DNA of 38,205 nucleotides, from assembly GCA_021774875.1 (NCBI GenBank), contig JAJFIP010000090.1, positions 1 to 38,205 on the forward strand, given 5' to 3'. Position numbers and translations under genes: made by a program. Under the pieces are notes generated by a model, which ran no database searches, was not told where the DNA came from, and saw only the letters and a program-made list of their open reading frames with translations. Positions 26,414 to 38,205 of this stretch are shown here, in pieces. Origin of the DNA: Emcibacter sp. (GTDB taxonomy: Bacteria; Pseudomonadota; Alphaproteobacteria; Sphingomonadales; Emcibacteraceae). The first letter of the stretch is position 1, and each line of letters opens with the position of its first letter.

Positions 26414-27301
26414 TTAATCGGCAGCGAATTTCGTCACTGCCAGGACTTTATTGCCATTGCCCAGAAATTCCAGATAGTCGAAACTGGTGGCTCGGGCCAG
26501 TGCTATTCCGCGTCCATGATGGGTCTGATTGGCAGATAAATCCATATCCAGATAATCGGCGTGATTAAACCCGGACCCCTGATCCTCTATCTTGAATGAC
26601 ATCAGGTTGTTTTCCCTCTCTACGGTGATTTCCACATATCTGTCCTTATACTCGGGCTGCACTAAGCGGAGATTGATTTCATCCCGGTGAAAATCATTGG
26701 CCATCAGGCGCCATTTTTCTTCATAGCCAATTTCAAGATTGCCATGTTCAATACTATTGGCGAGCAGTTCAAACAAGCCAAAGGCAACCCGGTCCGGCTC
26801 CGGGCATGATAGCGAGAGCATGGTGGTCAGAGCTTCAGCCTGCTCAAAGGTTTTTATGCGGAATATCCCCCGCCTGATAGCCGCAATTACAGACTGGCAG
26901 GAATGGATCTCCTGTCTGAGCGCACAGCGCTGGATAAAATCATTCTCCGCGCTCTGGACCATTGAATGTAAGCTATTGGCAGTGAAGCTGTTCTGTAGCC
27001 ACTGATAAGAGGCCGTGTGTTTGAAGGGTTTGATGTTTTTCTGTTCTGTTTTCCCCAGACACAGGATGAGCGGAATATCTCTGAGTTGATCATTTTTGGC
27101 CAGTTTCTTCAGAAAATGCGCGTCTTCCTTCATAAGGCGGTAGCTAACAATGATGGCATAAATCTGTGCGGTCTTATCGGTAAGAAAGTCATAGCCATCT
27201 TTAAGTCCGATCGCCTCCACAAAGGGGAAATTTCTGTTTTTAAGGGTCAAAACAATATCTGATTTATGCTCGGGTTGATTGTGTATAACCAATATTAGCA
27301 T
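26414..27301 (-). CDS. Pseudo-receiver fused to RsbW/HATPase_c_2-type ATP-binding domain
   Basis: A protein of about 295 residues. The N-terminal 110 or so residues have a receiver-like alternation (LILVIHNQPE, IPLILCLGK), but the phosphoacceptor position is Ser (AIIVSYRLMKEDA). A helical middle precedes a GHKL ATPase with N-box ELLANSIEHGN (near residue 185), G1 EDQGSGF and G2 HHGRGIALA. It is closest to the anti-sigma/RsbW-like serine kinase group, not to histidine kinases, since no H-box is seen. ATG at 27301 is preferred, with AGGA ten bases upstream; ATG at 27319 is possible. It diverges from the che operon that encodes two STAS proteins and a PP2C, a partner-switch context. Confidence 0.75.
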   Translation of the reverse strand: MLILVIHNQPEHKSDIVLTLKNRNFPFVEAIGLKDGYDFLTDKTAQIYAIIVSYRLMKEDAHFLKKLAKNDQLRDIPLILCLGKTEQKNIKPFKHTASYQWLQNSFTANSLHSMVQSAENDFIQRCALRQEIHSCQSVIAAIRRGIFRIKTFEQAEALTTMLSLSCPEPDRVAFGLFELLANSIEHGNLEIGYEEKWRLMANDFHRDEINLRLVQPEYKDRYVEITVERENNLMSFKIEDQGSGFNHADYLDMDLSANQTHHGRGIALARATSFDYLEFLGNGNKVLAVTKFAAD

Positions 27302-27481
27302 GATCACTATATCCTGCATTTTTGATAATATAAAATATAGAATAAGTCGTCAATACTTTCTATTTTATTAACATATTGGCGCAAAAACCAATGCTAGCCA
27401 ATATAATATACTATATTCTTTAGGTTGTATATCTATATATAAGAATTTTCTTTATTATTATATTCGTATTTTATAATAATC

Positions 27482-27496
27482 TTAAACTTATGTTAA
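27482..27496. promoter_or_regulatory. CtrA-type box upstream of the che operon
   Basis: TTAA-ACTTATG-TTAA is a perfect TTAA-N7-TTAA element, the full CtrA site of alphaproteobacteria. It lies 73 bases before the first che gene, in an AT-rich 267-base divergent region (27302-27568). CtrA directly activates motility and chemotaxis genes in several relatives, so it is a likely activator here. In very AT-rich DNA a chance match is possible. Confidence 0.5.
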
Positions 27497-27568
27497 ACTT
27501 TAATACCTAAATTTTTATCCATATTCGCATGAGTCACCTGCGCCAATACAAAATTTACGGAGAATAAT

Positions 27569-27883
27569 ATGGGTATATTTACAGTGACTGATTCCAAAGA
27601 TGAAATTAGTCTGATCCTGAAGTCCGTCATGGATCTGACCGTAGCCGAAGACCTGCGTCTTGGCTTTCTTGACTGTCTGGCCAAGAACAAAACCATAAAT
27701 GTCATGGCCGGTGATGTTGAGCGGATCACAACCCCCTGCCTACAGGTATTATACGCCATGAAAAATAAAACTTCTGCGCAGCATATTGATTTCCACCTTC
27801 CCGAAATGTCCGAGGCTTTTAAGAAGGCCCTGAAAGATGTCGGGCTTGAGAGCCATTTTATTAATCAGGAGCCGGTCGTATGA
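27569..27883 (+). CDS. STAS-domain protein, first gene of che operon
   Basis: A 104-residue single STAS domain. The pattern FTVTDSKDEISLILKSVMDLTVAEDLRLGFLDCL matches the N-terminal half, with the usual phosphorylation loop at VERITTPCLQVLYAM. The canonical D-S-x-G-L is altered to T-T-P-C-L, so the modified residue would be Thr rather than Ser, if any. A single STAS gene at the head of a cheY-cheA operon is typical of alphaproteobacteria. GGAG sits seven bases before the ATG. The stop overlaps the cheY ATG (ATGA), showing translational coupling. It may set an interface with the partner-switch ATPase encoded upstream, or simply tune CheA. Confidence 0.82.
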   Translation: MGIFTVTDSKDEISLILKSVMDLTVAEDLRLGFLDCLAKNKTINVMAGDVERITTPCLQVLYAMKNKTSAQHIDFHLPEMSEAFKKALKDVGLESHFINQEPVV

Positions 27884-28245
27884 GCAGAACCGCACTGACA
27901 ATTGATGATTCAAAAACCATGAGAGATATGGTGGCTTTTACCCTTAAAAATGCCGGATTTGAAGTTACCGAAGCTGAAAACGGCCAGTTGGGTCTGGATC
28001 AGATCAACGGGTCTTCTTTTGATGTCATCATAACTGATATCAATATGCCGGTTATGGACGGCATTCAGTTTACCCGCGAGGCACGAAAGCGAACCGAGGC
28101 ACGAACGACACCAATACTAATTCTGACCACAGAAAGTGGTTCATCCTTGAAGAATGAAGGCCGCACTGCCGGAGCGACCGGCTGGATAGTCAAGCCGTTT
28201 AATCCCGAAAAACTGCTTCAGGTCGTTGAGAAGGTTTGCGGTTAG
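27880..28245 (+). CDS. cheY: Chemotaxis response regulator CheY
   Basis: A 121-residue receiver. Acid pocket Asp9-Asp10, phosphoacceptor Asp53 (IITDINMPVMDG), Thr in LILTTESGS, and Lys in WIVKPFNPEKL are all present, with no output domain. The sequence is CheY-like (switch or diverter protein in the CheA pathway). The ATG overlaps the STAS stop by four bases. cheA begins 30 bases downstream. Whether this CheY binds the flagellar motor or acts as a phosphate sink is not visible. Confidence 0.9.
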   Translation: MSRTALTIDDSKTMRDMVAFTLKNAGFEVTEAENGQLGLDQINGSSFDVIITDINMPVMDGIQFTREARKRTEARTTPILILTTESGSSLKNEGRTAGATGWIVKPFNPEKLLQVVEKVCG

Positions 28246-28275
28246 TCCTGCACAAAAAAAATAAAAGGAAATTTT

Positions 28276-30354
28276 ATGTCAGATCCAATGGAGCAGTTTA
28301 AAGTCGTCTTTTTTGAAGAATGTTCCGAACTTTTAGTCAGCCTTGAAGAAGGCCTGATGCAGTTGCAAAGCGGCGAAAGTGACTCTGAAACCATGAATGC
28401 GGTTTTCCGGGCTGTCCATTCCATTAAGGGTGGCGCGGGGGCTTTTGGCTTTGACGCCCTGGTTGCCTTTGCTCATATTCAGGAAACCCTGCTTGATGAA
28501 ATGCGCTCCGAAACCATTGAAATCAAGCCGGAATATATCGATGTCCTGCTCCAGGCCTATGACATCCTGAGTGAACTGGTGGGTGCCGCCCAGCGCAGAG
28601 AGGAGGTTGATGAGAATTATGGTACTGATGCGGCACTAGCCATGAAAAATATCATGGAAAGCAGTAATACTTCTGCGCCCGAGAAACTACAGGATAGCAC
28701 AGACGAAGAGCCGCAGAACATCAATGTCCGCATTTTCAGAATATCCTTTAAACCTTTTGAGGAACTGTACCAACGCGCCAATGAGCCAATTCTACTGATC
28801 AGGGAGCTTGCTGATCTTGGTGAGATGACATTGAAGCTGGATACTTCTCATACCCCTGATCTTGCGGAAATGGATGCGGAACTTGCTTATTTTGCATGGG
28901 AATTCCGGCTGGTGACAGAATTTGATCAAGATGCCGTTCTAGAAGTATTTGAATTCGTCGAAGGCGATTGTGAACTGGATATTATCCCGGAAGAATTGTC
29001 GGCGGCTACGGAAACTACTGTTGCTATTGATGCTATTGATCCCGCCCGCGACAATATTAATGTTCAAAACACGCCTGCTGCTAAAACCAATAGCGGAGAA
29101 ACCGTTGTCAGCCAGTCTATCCGGGTAGAACTGGATAAGGTGGACCGACTGGTCAACATGGTCGGTGAACTCGTCATAACCCAGGCCATGCTGCGCGAAC
29201 AGGGCAGCCAGCTTCTGGTAGAGCAATATCCAAATCTGGTACAGGGCATAGAAGAGCTTTCCCGCCATATCCGCGACCTGCAGGAAAGCGTCATGGCGAT
29301 CCGGGCGCAACCGGTTAAATCTGTCTTTTCCCGTATGCCACGTCTGGTACGTGAACTCACCGCCTCTCTCGGTAAAAAAGCCCGGCTGGTGATGACCGGC
29401 GAAGAAACTGAAGTTGATAAAACCGTGACCGAAAGAATTGGCGACCCCCTGATGCATATGATCCGCAACAGCGTTGATCACGGCCTAGAATCTCCTGAAA
29501 TTCGACTGGAATCTGGCAAAGATGAAGAAGGCACTATCCATCTCTCGGCCTTTCATAGAGGCGGGCGTATATTCATTGAAATCGAAGATGACGGGGCCGG
29601 CATCAATCAGGAAATCGTTCTGAAGAAAGCCATAGAAAACGGACTGGTTTCAAAGGATACCAGCCTCAGTGATGAAGAGATTAACAATCTGATTTTTATG
29701 CCTGGATTCTCAACCGCAGAAAGTGTCACCAACGTATCCGGTCGCGGCGTCGGCATGGATGTTGTCCGCAAAAATATTCAAAGCCTTGGCGGGCGTATAT
29801 CCATCAGTTCTAAAGCCGGACGGGGCAGCAAATTCACCATGTCCCTGCCCCTGACCCTGGCGGTCATGGATGGCATGGTGGTGGAAATTGGCGACGAAAA
29901 ATTTGTCCTGCCGCTGGTCAATATCATTCAGACACTCCGGCCAGCACAACAAGAAGTCAATAGCCTGCCCGATGGCCGTAATGTGATGATGTTCCGGGAC
30001 GAATATATTTTTCTGGTGCCGCTTTACGACATTTTCGACGTCAAGGACGCAATCCATGATCCCTGTCAGGGCCTGGTAGTGGTGGTCGAAGGCGACGGCG
30101 GCGTACTCATGGGGTTCATCGTCGATGAGCTGGTCAATCAACAGCAGGTGGTGATCAAAAGCCTGGAGACAAATTACGAACTGATTGAGGGCGTATCAGG
30201 GGCCACCATTCTAGGCAATGGTCGTGTATCCCTGATTATTGACATCGCCACCGTACAGGAAATGACGGCCAAGCAATATGCAAAGCCACAGGAATTCGTA
30301 CCCGATACAGAAAGATCTTTATCTCAGGAACAAATCAGCATGGAGGTCCATTAA
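28276..30354 (+). CDS. cheA: Chemotaxis histidine kinase CheA
   Basis: A 692-residue kinase that phosphorylates CheY and CheB. P1 (about residues 1-105) holds the phosphorylated His48 in AVHSIKGGAG. A P2-like ferredoxin-type segment lies near 150-235 (RIFRISFKPFEELYQ). P3 dimerisation starts near residue 278 (RVELDKVDRLVNMVGELVI). The P4 ATPase has N-box MHMIRNSVDHGLE, G1 EDDGAGI and G2 GRGVGMDVV. P5 (CheW-like) runs to about residue 675. AAGGA precedes the ATG. The stop overlaps the cheW start by one base (TAATG). It has no receiver fusion, so is a classical CheA. Confidence 0.96.
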   Translation: MSDPMEQFKVVFFEECSELLVSLEEGLMQLQSGESDSETMNAVFRAVHSIKGGAGAFGFDALVAFAHIQETLLDEMRSETIEIKPEYIDVLLQAYDILSELVGAAQRREEVDENYGTDAALAMKNIMESSNTSAPEKLQDSTDEEPQNINVRIFRISFKPFEELYQRANEPILLIRELADLGEMTLKLDTSHTPDLAEMDAELAYFAWEFRLVTEFDQDAVLEVFEFVEGDCELDIIPEELSAATETTVAIDAIDPARDNINVQNTPAAKTNSGETVVSQSIRVELDKVDRLVNMVGELVITQAMLREQGSQLLVEQYPNLVQGIEELSRHIRDLQESVMAIRAQPVKSVFSRMPRLVRELTASLGKKARLVMTGEETEVDKTVTERIGDPLMHMIRNSVDHGLESPEIRLESGKDEEGTIHLSAFHRGGRIFIEIEDDGAGINQEIVLKKAIENGLVSKDTSLSDEEINNLIFMPGFSTAESVTNVSGRGVGMDVVRKNIQSLGGRISISSKAGRGSKFTMSLPLTLAVMDGMVVEIGDEKFVLPLVNIIQTLRPAQQEVNSLPDGRNVMMFRDEYIFLVPLYDIFDVKDAIHDPCQGLVVVVEGDGGVLMGFIVDELVNQQQVVIKSLETNYELIEGVSGATILGNGRVSLIIDIATVQEMTAKQYAKPQEFVPDTERSLSQEQISMEVH

Positions 30355-30875
30355 TGACAACTATCGTAGCAAATGATGCCGGTAATGATGACCAGATCCG
30401 GGAAGCCGGAGACATCAACCAATATATTTCCTTCAATGTGGGCAAGGAACTCTACGCCGTGGAAATTACCACGGTGCGAGAGATCAAGGGCTGGATCCCG
30501 ACCACCAGCCTGCCCAATTCACCGGAATATATGCGCGGGGTGATTAATCTCCGCGGCGTGATCGTTCCGGTCTTTGACCTGCGCACCCGCTTTCACCGCG
30601 GCGAAACCGAGCCCGGCAAAACTCATGTAGTGATTATTGTCAAGCTGGATGAGCGAACTATCGGCATTCTGGTTGATGCGGTATCCGATATTCTGACCAT
30701 ATCGTCTGAGGAAATCCTCGATGTGCCGGATCAGGACGTCAACCCTGAGTATGCCTTCATGGAAGGGCTGGTAGCTGTTGAAGAAAAAATGGTTGCCATC
30801 ATCAAGCCAAAATTACTTTTTGATATGGACCTGATGCCGAACACAGAAATAGAACCCGTGGCGGAAGTCGCCTGA
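30354..30875 (+). CDS. cheW: Chemotaxis adaptor CheW
   Basis: A 173-residue adaptor coupling receptors to CheA. The CheW domain starts at QYISFNVGKELYAVEITTVREI, continues with LPNSPEYMRGVINLRGVIVPVFDLR, and ends at MVAIIKPKLLF. There is a short N-terminal extension of about 20 residues and a C-terminal tail. Translation is coupled to cheA by the shared A of TAATG, with GGAGG upstream. Only one cheW lies in this window. Confidence 0.95.
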   Translation: MTTIVANDAGNDDQIREAGDINQYISFNVGKELYAVEITTVREIKGWIPTTSLPNSPEYMRGVINLRGVIVPVFDLRTRFHRGETEPGKTHVVIIVKLDERTIGILVDAVSDILTISSEEILDVPDQDVNPEYAFMEGLVAVEEKMVAIIKPKLLFDMDLMPNTEIEPVAEVA

Positions 30876-30919
30876 TAACACAGATAACAACAAGATTTTG
30901 ACCGATAGGAGCCTATAAA

Positions 30920-33900
30920 ATGACCACCCCAACAACAACCTCTACCCTAAGCGGCATGAAAAGCAGCACATTTGGATTAATAATTTCAAGCCTTCTGGTT
31001 GCGGCTATTGCCATCTTCATCACCATCGGAATTCAAGCTCAAAGCATGATAGTCCCTCTGATTGGCATAGTGTTAACCGGGCTTGCGGCTATAATGGCAT
31101 GGTTTTCCCGAACCAAGCAGACCGCACAGATGGATGTCGTTCAATACGCGCTCAGCAGACTTGCCGAGGGTGAGACGGTGGCAGAGATGCCCGAGACAGA
31201 CAGTGACAATGATCTGGCCCTCATGTTTCGCACCATCAACAGGATCAGTGATGCTGCTAAGGAAAATAGCCTGTTTCGGGCTGATACCGCTGGTCAGATT
31301 AATGCCATCAGCAAGGCACAGGCCGTAATCGAATTTAATATGGACGGCACCATTATTTCTGCCAACGACCACTTCCTTAATGCGGTGGGTTATCGGCTGG
31401 ATGAAATAAAGGGACAGCATCACCGTATGTTTGTCGAACCCGGCTTCAGAGAAAGTGTTGAATATCACAGCTTCTGGGACAAGCTCAACCGCGGCGAATA
31501 TGAAGCGGCGGAATATAAACGCCTCGGCAAGGGCGGCAGGGAAGTGTGGATTCAGGCTTCCTACAACCCCATACTGGAATTGAATGGCAAACCGTTCAAA
31601 GTGGTGAAATATGCCACCGATGTCACCGCTCAAAAGCAACAGAATATCATCAATCAACACATTAAAACCGCCACCGATGGCGTCAGAACCAATATCATGA
31701 TGGTTGATATAGATTATACCGTAATTTATATGAACAAGACCATTCGGGATATGTTTAAGACCAAAGAAGCGCAACTGAGAGAAGATTTGCTCACTCTTGA
31801 TTTTAGTAATCCTGTGGGCTCGGGAATTGATGCCTTCCACAAGGATCCCGCCTGCCTGCGCAATATTCTGGATAATTCCGGTGCCACCAGTGAAAGCCAT
31901 ATTGAAGTGGCGGGTATAGAATTTCATCTGATAATCAGCCGGATTCAGGATGCAAGCGGCAAACCTGCAGGTGCTGTAATTGAATGGCAGGATGTCACCG
32001 AAAAACTTGCTAAACAACACGCAGATACCCGGCTTGCCAGTGAAAATCAGCGCATTAAGACCGCACTTGATAATGCCAAAACCAATGTCATGGTGGCCGA
32101 TGCGGACTATAACATCGTCTATATGAATCAAACCATGCTGGATATGATGCGGGCCAATGAAGTTCAATTGAAAACAGTATTGCCCCGTCTGAATGCCAAC
32201 AAACTTATCGGCACCAATATCGATACTTTCCACAAAAACCCGGCCCACCAGCGCGGCATACTGGGAAATCTCACCGCAACTATCGAGACCCATCTGGAAT
32301 TGGCGGGTATCGAATTTGATCTTGTGGTCAGTCCGATTACTGACACAAATGGTGACCGCACAGGAACCGTTGTTGAATGGGAAGATGTCACCGAAAAACT
32401 GGCAAGAGAAAGGTCAGACACCCGACTTGCCAACGATAATCAACGCATCAGGATTGCCCTTGATAATGCCAGCACAAATGTCATGGTGGCGGACAAAGAT
32501 CTGAATATTGTTTACATGAATGACATCCTGCGCAAAATGTTGCATGAGGCCGAGCCTGAATTGAGGAAAGCCCTGCCCAATTTTGATGCCAGCAAGCTCA
32601 TCGGCACCAATATTGATGTTTTCCATAAAAATCCGGCCCATCAGCGCGGCATGATGCAAAATCTGACCTCAACTATTGAATCCAATATCAAGGTCGGCAA
32701 GTTTGACTTCAACCTGATCGTCAATCCGGTTACTGGTGATGAGGGTGAACGGCTGGGTACGGTCGTGGAATGGAAAGACATGACTCAGGAACTGGCCATC
32801 GAAGCCGAGATCAACAATGTGGTCAATGCGGCGGCGGCAGGTGAATTTTCAAAACGGGTCTCCACCGAAGACAAGCAGGGTTTTATGCTTTCTCTGGCCA
32901 ATAATATGAACACAATCTGCGCTAATACCAAAGCTGCGACAGATGATCTGGCGCGGGTTCTGGCAGAGCTGGCACAGGGCAACCTGACCGAAAAAATCGA
33001 GGCCGAATATGAAGGCACCTTCGATCTGCTGAAAACCAGTGCCAACGAAACGGCAGAACAATTGACCAATACGGTTACTCAGGTCAATAGTTCAGCGGGC
33101 GAAGTAGCCTCTGCAGCGGCTGAACTTTCCTCGGGCAGTGACGATCTGTCGCGGCGCACAGAGGCTCAGGCCTCAGCATTGGAAGAAACCGCAGCATCCA
33201 TGGAAGAGCTGGCGGTCACCGTGAAACAAAATGCGGACAATGCGGATGATGCCAACAAACTGGCCAACAAATCCCGCGAAATGGCCGTCAACGGCGGCGA
33301 AGTTGCGAAAGAAGCTGTCGAAGCCATGGGTGTGATTGAGGAATCTTCACAAAAGGTTTCCGACATCATCGGCGTCATAGATGATCTGGCCTTCCAGACC
33401 AACCTTCTTGCCCTCAATGCGGCAGTGGAAGCGGCCCGTGCTGGTGAAGCCGGTAAAGGTTTTGCCGTTGTAGCTGAAGAGGTCCGCACTCTGGCCCAGC
33501 GTTCGGCCCAGGCTTCCAACGAGATCAAGTCACTGATCACAAGTTCCAATACCCAGGTCAAAAGCGGGGTAGAGCTGGTCAATAATGCCGGCGGGGCGCT
33601 CACCGAAATTATGGGCTCCATTTCCCAGGTGGCAGAAATTGTATCTGAAATTGCCAGTGCCAGCTCGGAACAGACCCAGGGCATTGATGAGGTCAATGTG
33701 GCCATTGCCGAAATGGATGACATGACCCAGCAAAACTCCTCTCTGGTGGAAGAAAGCACAGCGGCAGCCCGGGTTCTGGAACGTCAGGCTGCCGAAATGC
33801 AGCGTCTGATGTCCTTCTTCAAGGTGGGCGAAGGTGGCAGTGGTCAGGCAGGAATCTCTCCCGTCCTTGTGCAGCAACAGCAGGTGAAACGCTCCCTGGT

Positions 33901-33979
33901 AGTTCCAACCCCAGAACCACAAAAGCAAGCCGCCGCAGGTGGGCAGGCGGGCCGTGAATCTGACTGGGCTGAATTTTAG
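30920..33979 (+). CDS. Membrane-anchored multi-PAS methyl-accepting chemotaxis protein
   Basis: A 1019-residue receptor. Two membrane segments (about 14-36 and 41-62) form a hairpin with hardly any periplasmic loop, so sensing is cytoplasmic or within the membrane. A BdlA/Aer-like PAS follows at about 135-240 ([14 protein letters not shown]). Then come three tandem PAS modules at about 248-378, 379-509 and 510-640, each ending in an EW.D.T motif. Two HAMP-like units (about 630-670 and 675-715) and the MCP hairpin follow, with the tip near residue 825 ([20 protein letters not shown]). The last five residues, DWAEF, resemble the CheR/CheB-tethering NWETF. AGGAG precedes the ATG. Energy, redox or oxygen taxis is a reasonable guess. 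Confidence 0.92.
31661..32839 (+). repeat. Three tandem PAS-encoding repeats, 393-base period
   Basis: Units start at 31661, 32054 and 32447, exactly 393 bases (131 codons) apart. Each encodes IxxAxD.xxTNxMxxDxDYxxxYMN at its start, GtxIDxFHKxPAxxR in the middle, and EWxDxTEKLA at its end. The third unit runs straight into the first HAMP. The second and third units look closest to each other, suggesting stepwise internal duplication. Confidence 0.85.
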
Positions 33980-33990
33980 GAGTATCCCCC

Positions 33991-34848
33991 ATGTCAGAGG
34001 CTGCCGAAAGAGTCCGGGAATTTGAATGGCGAGATCAGGACTTCAAATTCCTGGCCAAGCTGCTTCATGAAAAAACCGGAATTGTGCTGACGGAAAAAAA
34101 GAAAGAAATGATGTATGGCCGTCTGGTGCGCAGACTGCGGGCGTTGAGTATCAAAAGCTTTGCCAAATATTGTGAATATCTGCAAGGCGCGTCCGGAGAC
34201 AAGGAGCTGGGCTTTACCCTCAATGCAATCACCACCAACACCACAGATTTCTTTCGGGAAATGCATCATTTTGAATATTTGCGCGACAGGTTATTGCCGC
34301 AGGTAAGTAAACAGGTAAGCTTGAATTCAGCCCATCACTTTCGCATCTGGTCAGCAGGATGCTCTTCGGGGCAGGAGCCTTACAGTATCGCCATGGTAAT
34401 GCGCAGTATCCTTGGTCCGGCAGCACGGAACTGCAAAATTCTGGCCACCGATCTGGACAGCAATATGCTGGCAACGGGCAAATTTGGTCAATATGACGCT
34501 GAAAAATGCCATGAGACTATCCCGCGAACTTACCTCGCTTCCTATACAAAAAAAGTCAAGGATTCAGATGGTGACATGGTGATGATGAAAGATGAAATTA
34601 AAAAACTCATTACCTACAAGCAACTGAATTTATTGCATGACTGGCCCATGAAGGGCAAATTTGATGTCATTTTCTGTCGTAATGTCATGATTTATTTTGA
34701 CAAGGAAACCCAGGATCGTCTGGTGCGCCGCTACGCCACTTATTTAAAACCGGATGGGATATTGTTCATTGGCCATTCTGAAAGTCTGCTCAGCGTCTCG
34801 GACGTCTATAAATGCGAGGGAAAAACAACTTACAGGCTATTGCCATGA
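33991..34848 (+). CDS. cheR: Chemotaxis protein methyltransferase CheR
   Basis: A 285-residue SAM-dependent methyltransferase that methylates glutamates of the receptor. The N-terminal helical domain (FKFLAKLLHEKTGIVL) contains the receptor-binding basic region. The catalytic domain has ITTNTTDFFRE, FRIWSAGCSSGQEPYSIAM (SAM site) and FDVIFCRNVMIYFD, ending with LFIGHSESL. It begins 11 bases after the receptor gene with GGAG upstream. Its stop overlaps the cheD start. The receptor's C-terminal DWAEF is a plausible docking site for the beta-subdomain. Confidence 0.95.
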   Translation: MSEAAERVREFEWRDQDFKFLAKLLHEKTGIVLTEKKKEMMYGRLVRRLRALSIKSFAKYCEYLQGASGDKELGFTLNAITTNTTDFFREMHHFEYLRDRLLPQVSKQVSLNSAHHFRIWSAGCSSGQEPYSIAMVMRSILGPAARNCKILATDLDSNMLATGKFGQYDAEKCHETIPRTYLASYTKKVKDSDGDMVMMKDEIKKLITYKQLNLLHDWPMKGKFDVIFCRNVMIYFDKETQDRLVRRYATYLKPDGILFIGHSESLLSVSDVYKCEGKTTYRLLP

Positions 34849-35507
34849 CGCCAGTTTCCGCCAGCAACAAAAACAAAGATAAAGCGACTTTTTCTGATCG
34901 CCGAAAACGGGACGTCATTGCTGATATTCCGGCGGGATCCAATTATTATGACCATAAATTCGATACCATGATTCATAAAATCAATGAAGGTGGTTTCTGT
35001 GTGCTGAGCCGATCAGAACATATCATCATGACAACCCTCGGGTCGTGTATTTCCGTCTGTATGTTTGACCCTGTGGTCAGGGTGGGTGGCATGAATCATT
35101 TCCTGTTGCCCGAAGAACGTAATGCAGACCGGAAAGACAGCTTCAGTATGAGATATGGCAATAACGCCATGGAAATTCTGCTTAATGAGATATTGAAGCG
35201 CGGCGGCATGAAAGCACGTCTGGTACTCAAGGCCTTTGGCGCGGGCAACGTCCTGTCCATCAATGCCGACATCGGGGCAAAAAACCAAAGCTTTCTGAAG
35301 CAATATATTGCCGATGAGGGCATGACATTGGAAATCTGCGATCTGGGTGGTGACTTTCCCCGCCGGGTGGCTTTTTACCCGTCAACCGGCAAAGCGTTGG
35401 TCAAACTTCTGCGCCGGGCCGGGGATCGCAAAATTGGCAATCAGGAAGAAAAATACCGCAGGAAAATCGAAAAACAACATAGCTCCGGCGATATTGAATT
35501 ATTTTAG
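34845..35507 (+). CDS. cheD: Chemoreceptor glutamine deamidase CheD
   Basis: A 220-residue CheD. The catalytic Cys is in TLGSCISVCMFDP, and the His is in GGMNHFLLPEE, with a Thr/Gly-containing FGAGNVL segment later. It deamidates receptor glutamines and in some species modulates CheC-type phosphatases. The frame extends upstream to 34812, but ATG at 34845 forms an ATGA overlap with the cheR stop and is preferred. It carries about 45 extra N-terminal residues before the first conserved strand and a charged tail. The order cheR-cheD-cheB is typical of alphaproteobacteria. Confidence 0.9.
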   Translation: MTPVSASNKNKDKATFSDRRKRDVIADIPAGSNYYDHKFDTMIHKINEGGFCVLSRSEHIIMTTLGSCISVCMFDPVVRVGGMNHFLLPEERNADRKDSFSMRYGNNAMEILLNEILKRGGMKARLVLKAFGAGNVLSINADIGAKNQSFLKQYIADEGMTLEICDLGGDFPRRVAFYPSTGKALVKLLRRAGDRKIGNQEEKYRRKIEKQHSSGDIELF

Positions 35508-35519
35508 GAACAATATGTG

Positions 35520-36584
35520 ATGATGAAAAAAATACGCTTGTTGATTATTGATGACAGTCTTCTGGTTCGTACCATGATCAGAACAATCATATCCACGGAT
35601 CCGTCCATTGATGTGGTAGGTGACGCAGCCGACCCCTTTGAGGCCCGCGACAAGATCAAGCAATTAAACCCGGATGTGGCGACACTGGATGTGGAAATGC
35701 CCAAAATGGACGGCCTGTCTTTTCTGGAAAAAATCATGTCCCTGCGTCCCATGCCGGTTGTGATGGTATCAACTCTGACCCAGAAAGGGGCTGATGTAAC
35801 CCTTCGGGCACTGGAGCTTGGCGCTGTTGATTACGTGGCCAAACCACTGGACCAGGATCTGATGGTCATGGCTCAGGAACTCATCCTGAAAATCAAGATT
35901 GCCAGCAATGCCCGCATCAGACAAAGCGGGCGGCAAAAACTTTCCGACAGGACTCACAAACCGATGGTCAGTCCGGGTTCCTATGCCCGGAAATTAATAG
36001 TCATCGGGTCATCAACGGGCGGGGTTGAGTCTTTACATGACATTATCTGCAATCTGCCCGTTGATTGTCCGCCGGTGGTAATTGCCCAGCATATCTCAAA
36101 AGGATTTTCCGAACGCTTTGCCCTCCGGGTAGACAAGACCTGTGCCATTAATGTGAAAGAAGCAGAGCACGGTGAAAAGCTTCTGGCAGGCACGGTTTAT
36201 ATTGGTCAGGGTGGCAAACATATTACGGTCAAAAAATCTGGATACGGTCTTGTCTGTCTAGTCACAGAAGATACGGATGGGGAAAGTTACCGGCCATCTG
36301 TCGACCGTCTTTTCTGTTCCGTGGCGGACGTGGTCGGGGCAGATGCCGTTGGCGTAATCCTGACAGGCATGGGTAAAGACGGCGCACTTGGGCTATTGAC
36401 AATGAGGAGTTCTGGGGCCGCAACTCTGGGTCAGGACGAAGCCAGCTCTATCGTTTATGGCATGCCTAAGGCCGCCATGATGGCCGGGGCCGTGGAAAAA
36501 CAAGTGCCCCTGTCCCATATGGCCCGGGAAATAATTCAAGTCTGTGCCAGATCCGCCACAATCAGGAAAGCTGCCGCCGTATGA
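35520..36584 (+). CDS. cheB: Protein-glutamate methylesterase CheB
   Basis: A protein of about 354 residues with a receiver domain (acidic pair in LLIIDDS, phospho-Asp in VATLDVEMPKMDG, Lys in YVAKPLD) joined to a C-terminal methylesterase with catalytic Ser in VIGSSTGGVE, His in IAQHISKGF and Asp in ILTGMGKDGA. It demethylates or deamidates receptors when phosphorylated by CheA. Three start codons occur in a row: GTG 35517, ATG 35520, ATG 35523. AGGA at 35506-35509 spaces best to the first two. The stop overlaps the next gene by four bases. Confidence 0.95.
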   Translation: MMKKIRLLIIDDSLLVRTMIRTIISTDPSIDVVGDAADPFEARDKIKQLNPDVATLDVEMPKMDGLSFLEKIMSLRPMPVVMVSTLTQKGADVTLRALELGAVDYVAKPLDQDLMVMAQELILKIKIASNARIRQSGRQKLSDRTHKPMVSPGSYARKLIVIGSSTGGVESLHDIICNLPVDCPPVVIAQHISKGFSERFALRVDKTCAINVKEAEHGEKLLAGTVYIGQGGKHITVKKSGYGLVCLVTEDTDGESYRPSVDRLFCSVADVVGADAVGVILTGMGKDGALGLLTMRSSGAATLGQDEASSIVYGMPKAAMMAGAVEKQVPLSHMAREIIQVCARSATIRKAAAV

Positions 36585-37207
36585 CAGGCGCAGCTCTCAC
36601 TAAACCTGCAAAAGATATTGCAGTCGCGATGTCTGCTGGCGACCTGAAAGATATTCGCCATTCCACGTTGGCCAATATTTCTCAGGAAATATTACAAATT
36701 TCTGATCTTGTGGAAAACAGCATAGTAGATCTGTCGGATGAATTCATGAAATTGGTAAAATATTCCAAACAACAAGTTGATGATATGACCATGGCCTGTG
36801 ATCTGTTGCAGGAGAAAAAGTCGGACAAAGGCGGCTCAACCATGGACAAGGTTCATGAAATGTTGTGCGAAAGTGCGGAGGTGTCCACCTACTTTCATCA
36901 GAACGTCAACCGGATGATATATACCATGCAATTTCAGGATCGGGCCCGGCAACTTATGCAGGCCATTTCCGTGACGCTCAATATCTTGATAAATCTTTCT
37001 GAATCCATAGAAGAATCTACTAATATAAAGGAAAAAGTAACCATTTCAGAAGATAATAAGAATATTCTAAATAAGCTGATCGAAGACGCAGCTCACCGGG
37101 AGCTGGATCAAAATTACATCCTGAAAATGTTTTTGGGTACTACCGATGAAAAAAGTGAACCCGGGCGCGATGAAGAAGAAGATTTTACCGATATTGAATT
37201 TTTTTAA
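36581..37207 (+). CDS. CheZ/CheT-like candidate CheY-P phosphatase (DxxxQ helix)
   Basis: A 208-residue, mostly helical cytoplasmic protein. A central helix carries MQFQDRARQLMQ, giving Asp120-x3-Gln124. This is the arrangement used by CheZ and by the CheT phosphatase of Sinorhizobium meliloti, which sits at the end of a che operon. An N-terminal amphipathic helix (about residues 28-65) and an acidic tail (GRDEEEDFTDIEFF) resemble the CheZ layout, where the C-terminal tail binds CheY. The overlap with cheB is ATGA. Function as a CheY phosphatase is inferred from motif and location; overall similarity to E. coli CheZ is low, so a structural or adaptor role remains possible. Confidence 0.6.
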   Translation: MTGAALTKPAKDIAVAMSAGDLKDIRHSTLANISQEILQISDLVENSIVDLSDEFMKLVKYSKQQVDDMTMACDLLQEKKSDKGGSTMDKVHEMLCESAEVSTYFHQNVNRMIYTMQFQDRARQLMQAISVTLNILINLSESIEESTNIKEKVTISEDNKNILNKLIEDAAHRELDQNYILKMFLGTTDEKSEPGRDEEEDFTDIEFF

Positions 37208-37221
37208 CTGAAGGATTATTG

Positions 37222-37530
37222 ATGGAATATCAGATCGACGTAACAGAAGAAATATTTGAAGCAAAATTGAGCGAAAAAATTACTTTTTCAGATCTCGATG
37301 GCTTTCGGCAAATGGTGCGAAGTATGGTGGATAGCTGCTCGATAAAAAATATAGTCGATTTATCTGATGTGGAATTCATTGATTCAGCGGGACTGGGCAT
37401 GCTGTTACTGGCCCGGGATGAAATTTCCAAAACATCATCCAATCTGACTTTAAAAGCACCACAAGGACAAGTCCTGCGCATGTTTAATGTTGCCCGCTTT
37501 GATCAGATGTTTGATATTGAAACCGATTAG
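37222..37530 (+). CDS. STAS-domain anti-sigma-factor antagonist-like protein
   Basis: A 102-residue STAS domain with the canonical phosphorylation loop VEFIDSAGLGMLLLA; Ser55 is the expected phosphorylated residue. Relatives (RsbV/SpoIIAA) are phosphorylated by RsbW-type kinases and dephosphorylated by PP2C phosphatases. The ATG at 37222 is preferred to TTG 37219 since AAGGA lies six bases upstream of it. The stop is a TAG, and the following phosphatase gene continues in the same frame with no frameshift. Together with the ATPase at 26414-27301 this supplies a kinase-substrate pair. Confidence 0.88.
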   Translation: MEYQIDVTEEIFEAKLSEKITFSDLDGFRQMVRSMVDSCSIKNIVDLSDVEFIDSAGLGMLLLARDEISKTSSNLTLKAPQGQVLRMFNVARFDQMFDIETD

Positions 37531-37605
37531 TTATCTGCGGTGACGCCTTCATCACTATATCATAATCAAAATATTTCAGAACCGGAGAATCTCGATCTCG
37601 GGACC

Positions 37606-38205
37606 ATGCCAGCGGATGTTCTTGAGAGCATCATTCTTATTGTCGATGATGATGAACTTCACTGTCATTTGATCGCAATTATTTTGTCCCAGGATGGATT
37701 TAAAAACCTGCATTTTGCCCGTGATGGCCGGGAAGCCTTGCACATGGCCCGCAAGATCACGCCAGATATGATTATTCTGGATATCTTGATGCCAAATATT
37801 GACGGGTTGGAGGTCTGTCGGGAACTCCGGGAAAAAAGACAATTCAGAAATACGCCTATTATCGCCCATACCATCAAAAACAATCCCGAAGACCGGGCCG
37901 AAATCTATGATGCCGGGGCCACGGATATTTTCCCCAAGCCGGTTTCCGAGCGGGAGGTCCAGAATCGGGTTTATATGCATTTGAAATATAGCCGTCTGAT
38001 GAAAGGCCTGAAACACTATCACAGGCGATTGACCCATGATCTTGATATGGCCCGCTCAATGCAGGAGGCTCTTCTGCCCAGACTGCCACGTCTTGCGGAA
38101 ATACTGGATAGCCACGGTCTGGATATAGATTTTCAATATGAATCTTCCGATGAATTGGGCGGGGATTTTTGGGGTGTCGAGGTGATTGATGAAGACCGTC
38201 TTTTT
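37606..38205 (+). CDS. Receiver-PP2C (RsbU-like) phosphatase, 3'-truncated
   Basis: The frame is open to the window end, so at least 200 residues are seen. A receiver domain comes first: IILIVDDDELH acidic pocket, phospho-Asp in MIILDILMPNIDG, conserved Thr in IIAHTIKN and Lys in DIFPKPVSE. A helical linker LTHDLDMARSMQEALLP follows, then GGDFWGVEV, where the Asp of GGDF is the first metal ligand of SpoIIE/PP2C phosphatases. Such proteins dephosphorylate STAS substrates when the receiver is phosphorylated. The start is ATG at 37606, but an in-frame GTG at 37540 could serve; neither has a clear Shine-Dalgarno. Partner of the STAS protein just upstream. Confidence 0.85.
   Translation, partial: MPADVLESIILIVDDDELHCHLIAIILSQDGFKNLHFARDGREALHMARKITPDMIILDILMPNIDGLEVCRELREKRQFRNTPIIAHTIKNNPEDRAEIYDAGATDIFPKPVSEREVQNRVYMHLKYSRLMKGLKHYHRRLTHDLDMARSMQEALLPRLPRLAEILDSHGLDIDFQYESSDELGGDFWGVEVIDEDRLF

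Follow-up and report, generated by a model that had tools for sequence, protein, structure and literature searches.

A candidate serine/threonine partner switch beside an F7-type chemosensory operon of Emcibacter

Class F7 is the chemosensory class from which E. coli chemotaxis arose. Its stage-1 gene clusters in gammaproteobacteria begin with a STAS gene and end with mcpA-like, STAS and serine phosphatase genes, and the biological function of the ancient F7 system is described as still unknown by Ortega et al. 2020 (PMC7184735). The F7 system Che4 of A. brasilense governs swimming reversals (PMC6759762). HsbR, a receiver-PP2C-kinase protein, is fed by the histidine phosphotransfer protein HptB and controls HsbA (PMC6482189), SypE is turned from a kinase into a phosphatase when its receiver is phosphorylated (PMC10120452), and LvrC, which is phosphorylated by a histidine kinase, is a proposed anti-sigma factor (PMC13269768). 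Here we analysed a window of 38,205 nucleotides, the whole of contig C387 from a draft genome (3.9 Mb in 398 contigs) whose named relatives belong to Emcibacter. It holds an F7-type che operon flanked by the genes of an RsbW-like kinase, a STAS protein (STAS2) and a receiver-bearing PP2C phosphatase, hereafter the trio. We propose, with a probability of about 0.58, that this F7 array has two phosphoryl outlets and that its receptors, acting via CheA, set the phosphorylation of STAS2. This would suggest a concrete F7 output, namely a STAS protein served by a dedicated kinase and a dedicated phosphatase, the latter bearing an intact receiver.

The kinase, STAS2 and PP2C genes and their linkage to che operons

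The locus consists of a divergent kinase gene upstream, followed by STAS1-cheY-cheA-cheW-receptor-cheR-cheD-cheB-ORF208, STAS2 and the receiver-PP2C gene. An earlier note on this DNA had named the che genes, the kinase, both STAS proteins and the receiver-PP2C, and all of them were located at the coordinates given in this section and the next. The kinase, STAS2 and PP2C have, with high confidence, the anatomy of a partner switch:

26414..27319, minus strand: RsbW-like kinase with a degenerate N-terminal receiver, likely start 27301 (Pfam HATPase_c_2, E 1.5e-7)
37219..37530, plus strand: STAS2, a canonical STAS protein with FIDSAGLG (STAS, E 3e-13, over the cut-off; anti-sigma antagonist superfamily model also over its cut-off)
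37540..38205 (window end), plus strand: receiver-PP2C, N-terminal 222 amino acids (Response_reg, 6e-28); remainder at C381:3-581

The kinase has a HATPase_c_2 domain and no reported HisKA, in keeping with partner-switch kinases, which have no histidine dimerisation domain, and its N-box, DxGxG and GRG motifs are kept across relatives. In its predicted structure (mean predicted local distance difference test score, pLDDT, 82) a receiver fold covers about residues 1-140 and is followed by the HATPase domain. The phosphoacceptor Asp of this receiver is substituted (VSYR), so the pseudo-receiver claimed in the earlier note is upheld; it is entirely missing from the kinase in two Emcibacter-group genomes (G007 and G015). 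Profile and fold searches agree on LvrC of Leptospira (PDB 9qih) as the protein that best matches the kinase over its full length. STAS2 has the phosphorylatable residue expected of a partner-switch protein (FIDSAGLG), and its DS motif is present in 90 of 94 relatives.

The PP2C gene is interrupted by the contig end. Its other 192 amino acids open contig C381 of the same genome, where they form the sole SpoIIE domain found in a genome-wide domain search, and we infer that C387 and C381 join within one PP2C gene. The motifs GGDFW, ADFSGHG and DDLT are present, and the metal ligands (GGD, the D of DFSGHG, SD and DD) are intact over both pieces. The gene that follows on C381, of AsnC type, has the opposed orientation, which makes PP2C the last gene of the operon. 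The DD, D, T/S and K residues of the PP2C receiver are kept in all 58 che-linked alphaproteobacterial copies, among them nine tandem copies with a dead-looking phosphatase. This complete set of phosphoacceptor residues agrees with the earlier proposal that the PP2C receiver is the candidate entry point; besides CheY and CheB, it is the only linked part that could accept phosphate from CheA. A tandem receiver-PP2C pair lies in the F7 operons of L118, L122 and L140 (Rhodospirillales, Azospirillum), the first member lacking the metal-ligand motifs while its receiver is intact, suggesting a pseudo-phosphatase.

The trio behaves like a single partner-switch unit: in many alphaproteobacteria its genes are neighbours although their order varies, in some genomes they are fused, and they decay jointly. 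Since completeness is 62 to 97% for some genomes of the Emcibacter group, absences have to be read with caution. The trio is complete in G000, G004, G005, G011 and G013, and also in G007, where the kinase is shorter. G006, G008 and G010 have no kinase genome-wide and a PP2C without receiver, with changes of metal-ligand Asp in G008 and G010 (GGD to AGN, DD to GD); a 17-residue match in G008 (E 0.32) was too weak to be claimed as a remnant of the kinase. All three genes are gone from G009 and G012, whose che operon remains, with STAS1 and a shortened ORF208 in it. In a tree of Che proteins this decay falls into two separate Emcibacter lineages, and a third lineage (G015 and G001) has no PP2C at the expected place. 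Moreover, receiver-PP2C-kinase fusions of HsbR-like order occur in L109, Thalassospira, and in the F7 loci L226, L228, L230, L238 and L239 outside the bacterial class of Emcibacter, and kinase-receiver-PP2C fusions of SypE-like order occur inside the F7 che operons L203 and L205. The fused genes adjoin a STAS2 gene or sit in an F7 operon. In the window receiver, PP2C and kinase do not share one polypeptide as in the HsbR/SypE family; the kinase is a separate gene, and the fusion is found in relatives.

A class-wide survey covered 40 F7 loci, a few of them interrupted by contig ends and those of related genomes being non-independent. A PP2C gene is nearby in 14 of the 40, accompanied by the kinase in 12, and the kinase is present in one of the 26 loci without PP2C nearby. 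The kinase gene takes four positions (divergent at the head, after PP2C, opposed at the tail, and between STAS2 and PP2C) and adjacency holds in each. Linkage to che, mapped on the PP2C tree, requires 16 changes of state, of which at least nine are forced by supported branches, gains of linkage being inseparable from losses. The earlier interpretation of the three proteins as partner-switch part types is borne out: their anatomy fits, and the trio travels as a unit and is found repeatedly beside F7 operons. The kinase, STAS2 and PP2C genes are under purifying selection (ratio of nonsynonymous to synonymous substitution rates, dN/dS, about 0.08-0.17), and since the arrangement also recurs in many genera, it is more than chance.

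The che operon, STAS1 and ORF208

The che operon spans 27569-37207, and its ninth gene is the open reading frame ORF208:

27569..27883, plus strand: STAS1, a divergent STAS protein at the operon head (STAS_2, E 0.0018, weak, under the curated cut-off)
27880..28245, plus strand: CheY (Response_reg, 4e-27)
28276..30354, plus strand: CheA, with Hpt, H-kinase_dim, HATPase and CheW domains and the P1 motif HSIKGG
30354..30875, plus strand: CheW (CheW, 1.6e-33)
30920..33979, plus strand: Aer2-like chemoreceptor with two transmembrane segments, PAS repeats, HAMP and MCP domains, ending in DWAEF (NCBIfam Aer2, 656 bits, cut-off 1200)
33991..34848, plus strand: CheR (domain match)
34812..35507, plus strand: CheD, ending in SGDIELF (domain match)
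35517..36584, plus strand: CheB (domain match)
36581..37207, plus strand: ORF208, an eroded McpA-like soluble receptor of 208 amino acids (alignment to McpA-like proteins of relatives)

The order cheY-cheA-cheW-aer2-like receptor-cheR-cheD-cheB is that of F7, and together with the Aer2-like receptor it appears to fit this class. Profile scores, as distinct from a class-wide CheABR tree, set this CheA and its relatives apart from the other CheAs of the genome. The head and tail features of stage-1 F7 are all present, i.e. the 5' STAS, the mcpA-like gene (eroded to ORF208), the second STAS and the phosphatase, and the operon has a single cheW where stage 1 has two cheW-like genes. The terminal DWAEF of the receptor is a pentapeptide of the CheR-tether type.

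The same F7 block, with a STAS gene at the head and mcpA-like, STAS and phosphatase genes at the tail, was found in seven loci of another class of the same phylum (L226, L227, L228, L230, L238, L239 and L240), two of which have no recognised mcpA-like gene. In all five of these loci that were scanned, the phosphatase gene encodes receiver, SpoIIE and HATPase_c_2 domains (Pfam; HATPase_c_2 at its curated cut-off in four of five), and the kinase is thus present there too, as a fusion. Judged from domain matches, and from the portions of the source article available to us, the stage-1 F7 gene of gammaproteobacteria that was described as encoding a serine phosphatase probably also carries a kinase domain. 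Calling these loci gammaproteobacterial relies on the match to the published stage-1 gene order, and no species is claimed.

STAS1 is present in 36 of the 40 F7 loci of the class-wide survey. The earlier note had counted it as part of the switch, which did not stand: STAS1 lies beside CheY-CheA in 21 of 24 F7 loci without a switch gene nearby and is retained in those Emcibacter genomes from which the switch is gone. It was consequently rejected on co-occurrence as a second switch substrate and belongs to the CheY-CheA core, since it is kept when the switch genes are gone. Of 58 aligned rows (STAS2 being one, as reference), 50 have Thr or Ser at the phosphosite, and phosphorylation of STAS1 is possible given this mostly conserved residue.

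ORF208, which like the split of the PP2C gene is missing from the earlier note, matches no Pfam family over its cut-off and its structure model is poor (pLDDT 59). Aligned to the McpA-like proteins of relatives (390-400 amino acids), it has lost the hairpin tip and retains an FQDxxxQ motif and a DIEFF terminus. FQDxxxQ is found in 44 of 48 alphaproteobacterial McpA-like proteins, 13 of 16 ORF208 proteins and one of 81 Aer2-like receptors, and is absent from the McpA-like proteins outside the class. It resembles the catalytic motif of CheZ. ORF208 was rejected as a CheZ homologue: hhalign gave E 0.27 and a probability of 0.2% with an alignment around FQDxxxQ only, and a PDB sequence search gave no support. 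In addition, a D[IV]E[LF]F C-terminus is common to McpA-like proteins (38/47), ORF208 (12/16) and CheD (19/66), located in the window at 35490-35507 and 37190-37207. It differs from the DWxEF tether of the receptor and also occurs outside the class. The proteins ending in it may possibly share a docking partner. STAS2 lies directly 3' of the mcpA-like gene or ORF208 in most F7 loci having STAS2, inside and outside the class.

A possible second outlet of CheA and its alternatives

In the array proposed here, CheA would pass phosphate to CheY and CheB and, in addition, to the PP2C receiver. Phosphorylated PP2C would take phosphate off STAS2, the RsbW-like kinase would restore it, and the phosphorylation state of STAS2 would select its binding partner, either the kinase or some other protein. 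Input from the PAS/Aer2-like receptor could in this way set the state of a downstream protein encoded outside the locus, by analogy an anti-sigma factor, a sigma factor, a cyclase or a motility factor. We have moderate confidence in CheA as the probable PP2C donor; STAS2 is the presumed switch substrate, acting on a presumed downstream target. If receiver phosphorylation favours the phosphatase over the kinase, following the logic of HsbR and SypE, CheA activity would give unphosphorylated STAS2. Since Che4 controls reversals, a switch in that system would be an additional outlet and not a replacement of the motor output. The trio is a good, testable candidate for an F7 output because it recurs beside such operons in many proteobacteria.

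Several observations weigh against this proposal. The trio is lacking in 24 of the 40 F7 loci, and phosphotransfer from CheA to PP2C is a plausible prediction for a trio that also lives without F7 CheA. For example, G016 and G018 have the order leuS-lptE-holA-(ech)-kinase(-)-STAS2-PP2C, with no che gene between kinase and STAS2, and F7 CheA was not found in G018 at the search threshold; the switch can hence run without F7 CheA, and its phosphate must there come from a different donor. The F7 loci L162 and L171, of one family, encode an Hpt-domain protein immediately 3' of the kinase gene, one being a PAS-GAF-Hpt protein and the other a hybrid histidine kinase, i.e. possible rival phosphodonors. 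In G015 a kinase is retained while the expected site has no PP2C, so the losses of the two are not strictly coupled, and a rule that they always disappear jointly was dropped. A receiver-PP2C-kinase protein of an F7 locus outside the class (L228:14422-16119) has Asn at the phosphoacceptor position. Finally, no effector gene is linked to the locus: an effector beside the switch was considered and rejected, the downstream genes in relatives being mutually unrelated (efflux protein, DnaB, lipid kinase, metal ATPase), except for the Hpt-domain proteins of one family.

In Emcibacter the entire che operon lies exactly between kinase and STAS2 at this same leuS-lptE-holA site, and the Emcibacter PP2C groups with the che-less copies of G016 and G018 in the PP2C tree. 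The che operon was either inserted into a switch locus that already existed or lost from there in the sister genera. The earlier note had asked whether its parts move independently: the trio generally stays together, whereas trio and che operon are separable, as in G016 and G018. The loci L208 and L221, from sister genera, have kinase-STAS2-PP2C at the che-free leuS-lptE-holA site and offer a natural empty-site comparison.

The che-free trio at this site, the Hpt-domain proteins of L162 and L171 and the feeding of HsbR by HptB and not CheA (PMC6482189) would all suit a working switch whose phosphate comes from a histidine kinase other than CheA or from an Hpt protein, with the che operon as a neighbour through a shared behaviour such as swimming or attachment. 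We regard this as unlikely, while giving it real weight, as neither the window nor C381 has another histidine kinase gene next to the trio, the linkage to F7 CheA is repeated over many genera while the kinase gene shifts position, and the receiver residues are invariant in che-linked copies. The flow might also be reversed: STAS2 in one phosphorylation state would bind McpA-like/ORF208 or the receptor and alter the array, its receiver-PP2C integrating some other signal. The frequent position of STAS2 directly after mcpA-like genes or ORF208 speaks for it, and a similar idea has been raised, without experiment, for Campylobacterota (PMC9239204). It is nevertheless rather improbable, given that che-free sites retain STAS2 and that G009, G012 and several loci of the class retain the ORF208/McpA-like gene but have no STAS2. 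Least of all do we expect mere historical hitch-hiking, with a che operon that has no functional link to the divergent kinase and STAS2 genes around it. The G016 and G018 sites without che genes in between, and the Emcibacter losses, which show the switch to be dispensable for the che operon, would agree with it, but with at least nine supported changes of linkage and several distinct positions of the kinase gene, adjacency by chance is unlikely, and loci outside the class contain the same block of genes.

Control of STAS2 phosphorylation through CheA is thus the explanation that we favour. We tentatively extend it, at somewhat less than even odds, to the suggestion that a complete Ser/Thr partner switch was the ancestral second output of class F7 in proteobacteria, with CheA-controlled STAS phosphorylation as the original function of the class, instead of motor control alone. 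If true, this would join chemotaxis-type histidine-aspartate arrays and serine/threonine partner switches, two families usually treated apart.

Comparison with described systems

The gene content of F7 was largely known already from Ortega et al. 2020 (PMC7184735), which the earlier note had not recognised. Their stage-1 cluster has the same order as the window (STAS, cheY, cheA, cheW, aer2-like, cheR, cheD, cheB, mcpA-like, second STAS, serine phosphatase), and its description, in the portions of the article available to us, neither names a kinase nor discusses a switch. In the Emcibacter window, by contrast, the kinase has a divergent gene of its own, and the mcpA-like gene is present in an eroded form. 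Relative to the same portions, the kinase, the co-decay, the fusions and the repeated linkage are additions.

Other described systems resemble the trio more than the operon. Rhodobacter capsulatus has a predicted alphaproteobacterial partner switch like that of the window, described for gene transfer agent production and stationary-phase viability, with no che link in the part of the abstract consulted (PMC3999984). LvrC (PDB 9qih) likewise joins a receiver to an RsbW-type Bergerat domain; its receiver is active and phosphorylated by LvrB, whereas that of the window kinase is degenerate and the active receiver is on the partner PP2C (PMC13269768). In SypE-SypA of Vibrio fischeri, a kinase, a receiver and a PP2C, in the order seen in L203 and L205, control the serine phosphorylation of a STAS protein; this system differs in being a fused protein with the sensor kinase RscS as donor and in controlling a biofilm polysaccharide locus (PMC10120452). 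HsbR-HsbA and CrsR-CrsA also direct a receiver, a PP2C and an RsbW-like kinase at one STAS protein. There, a single fused protein fed by a phosphorelay acts on FlgM, HsbD or RpoS, whereas the window has a separate kinase beside a CheA operon (PMC6482189).

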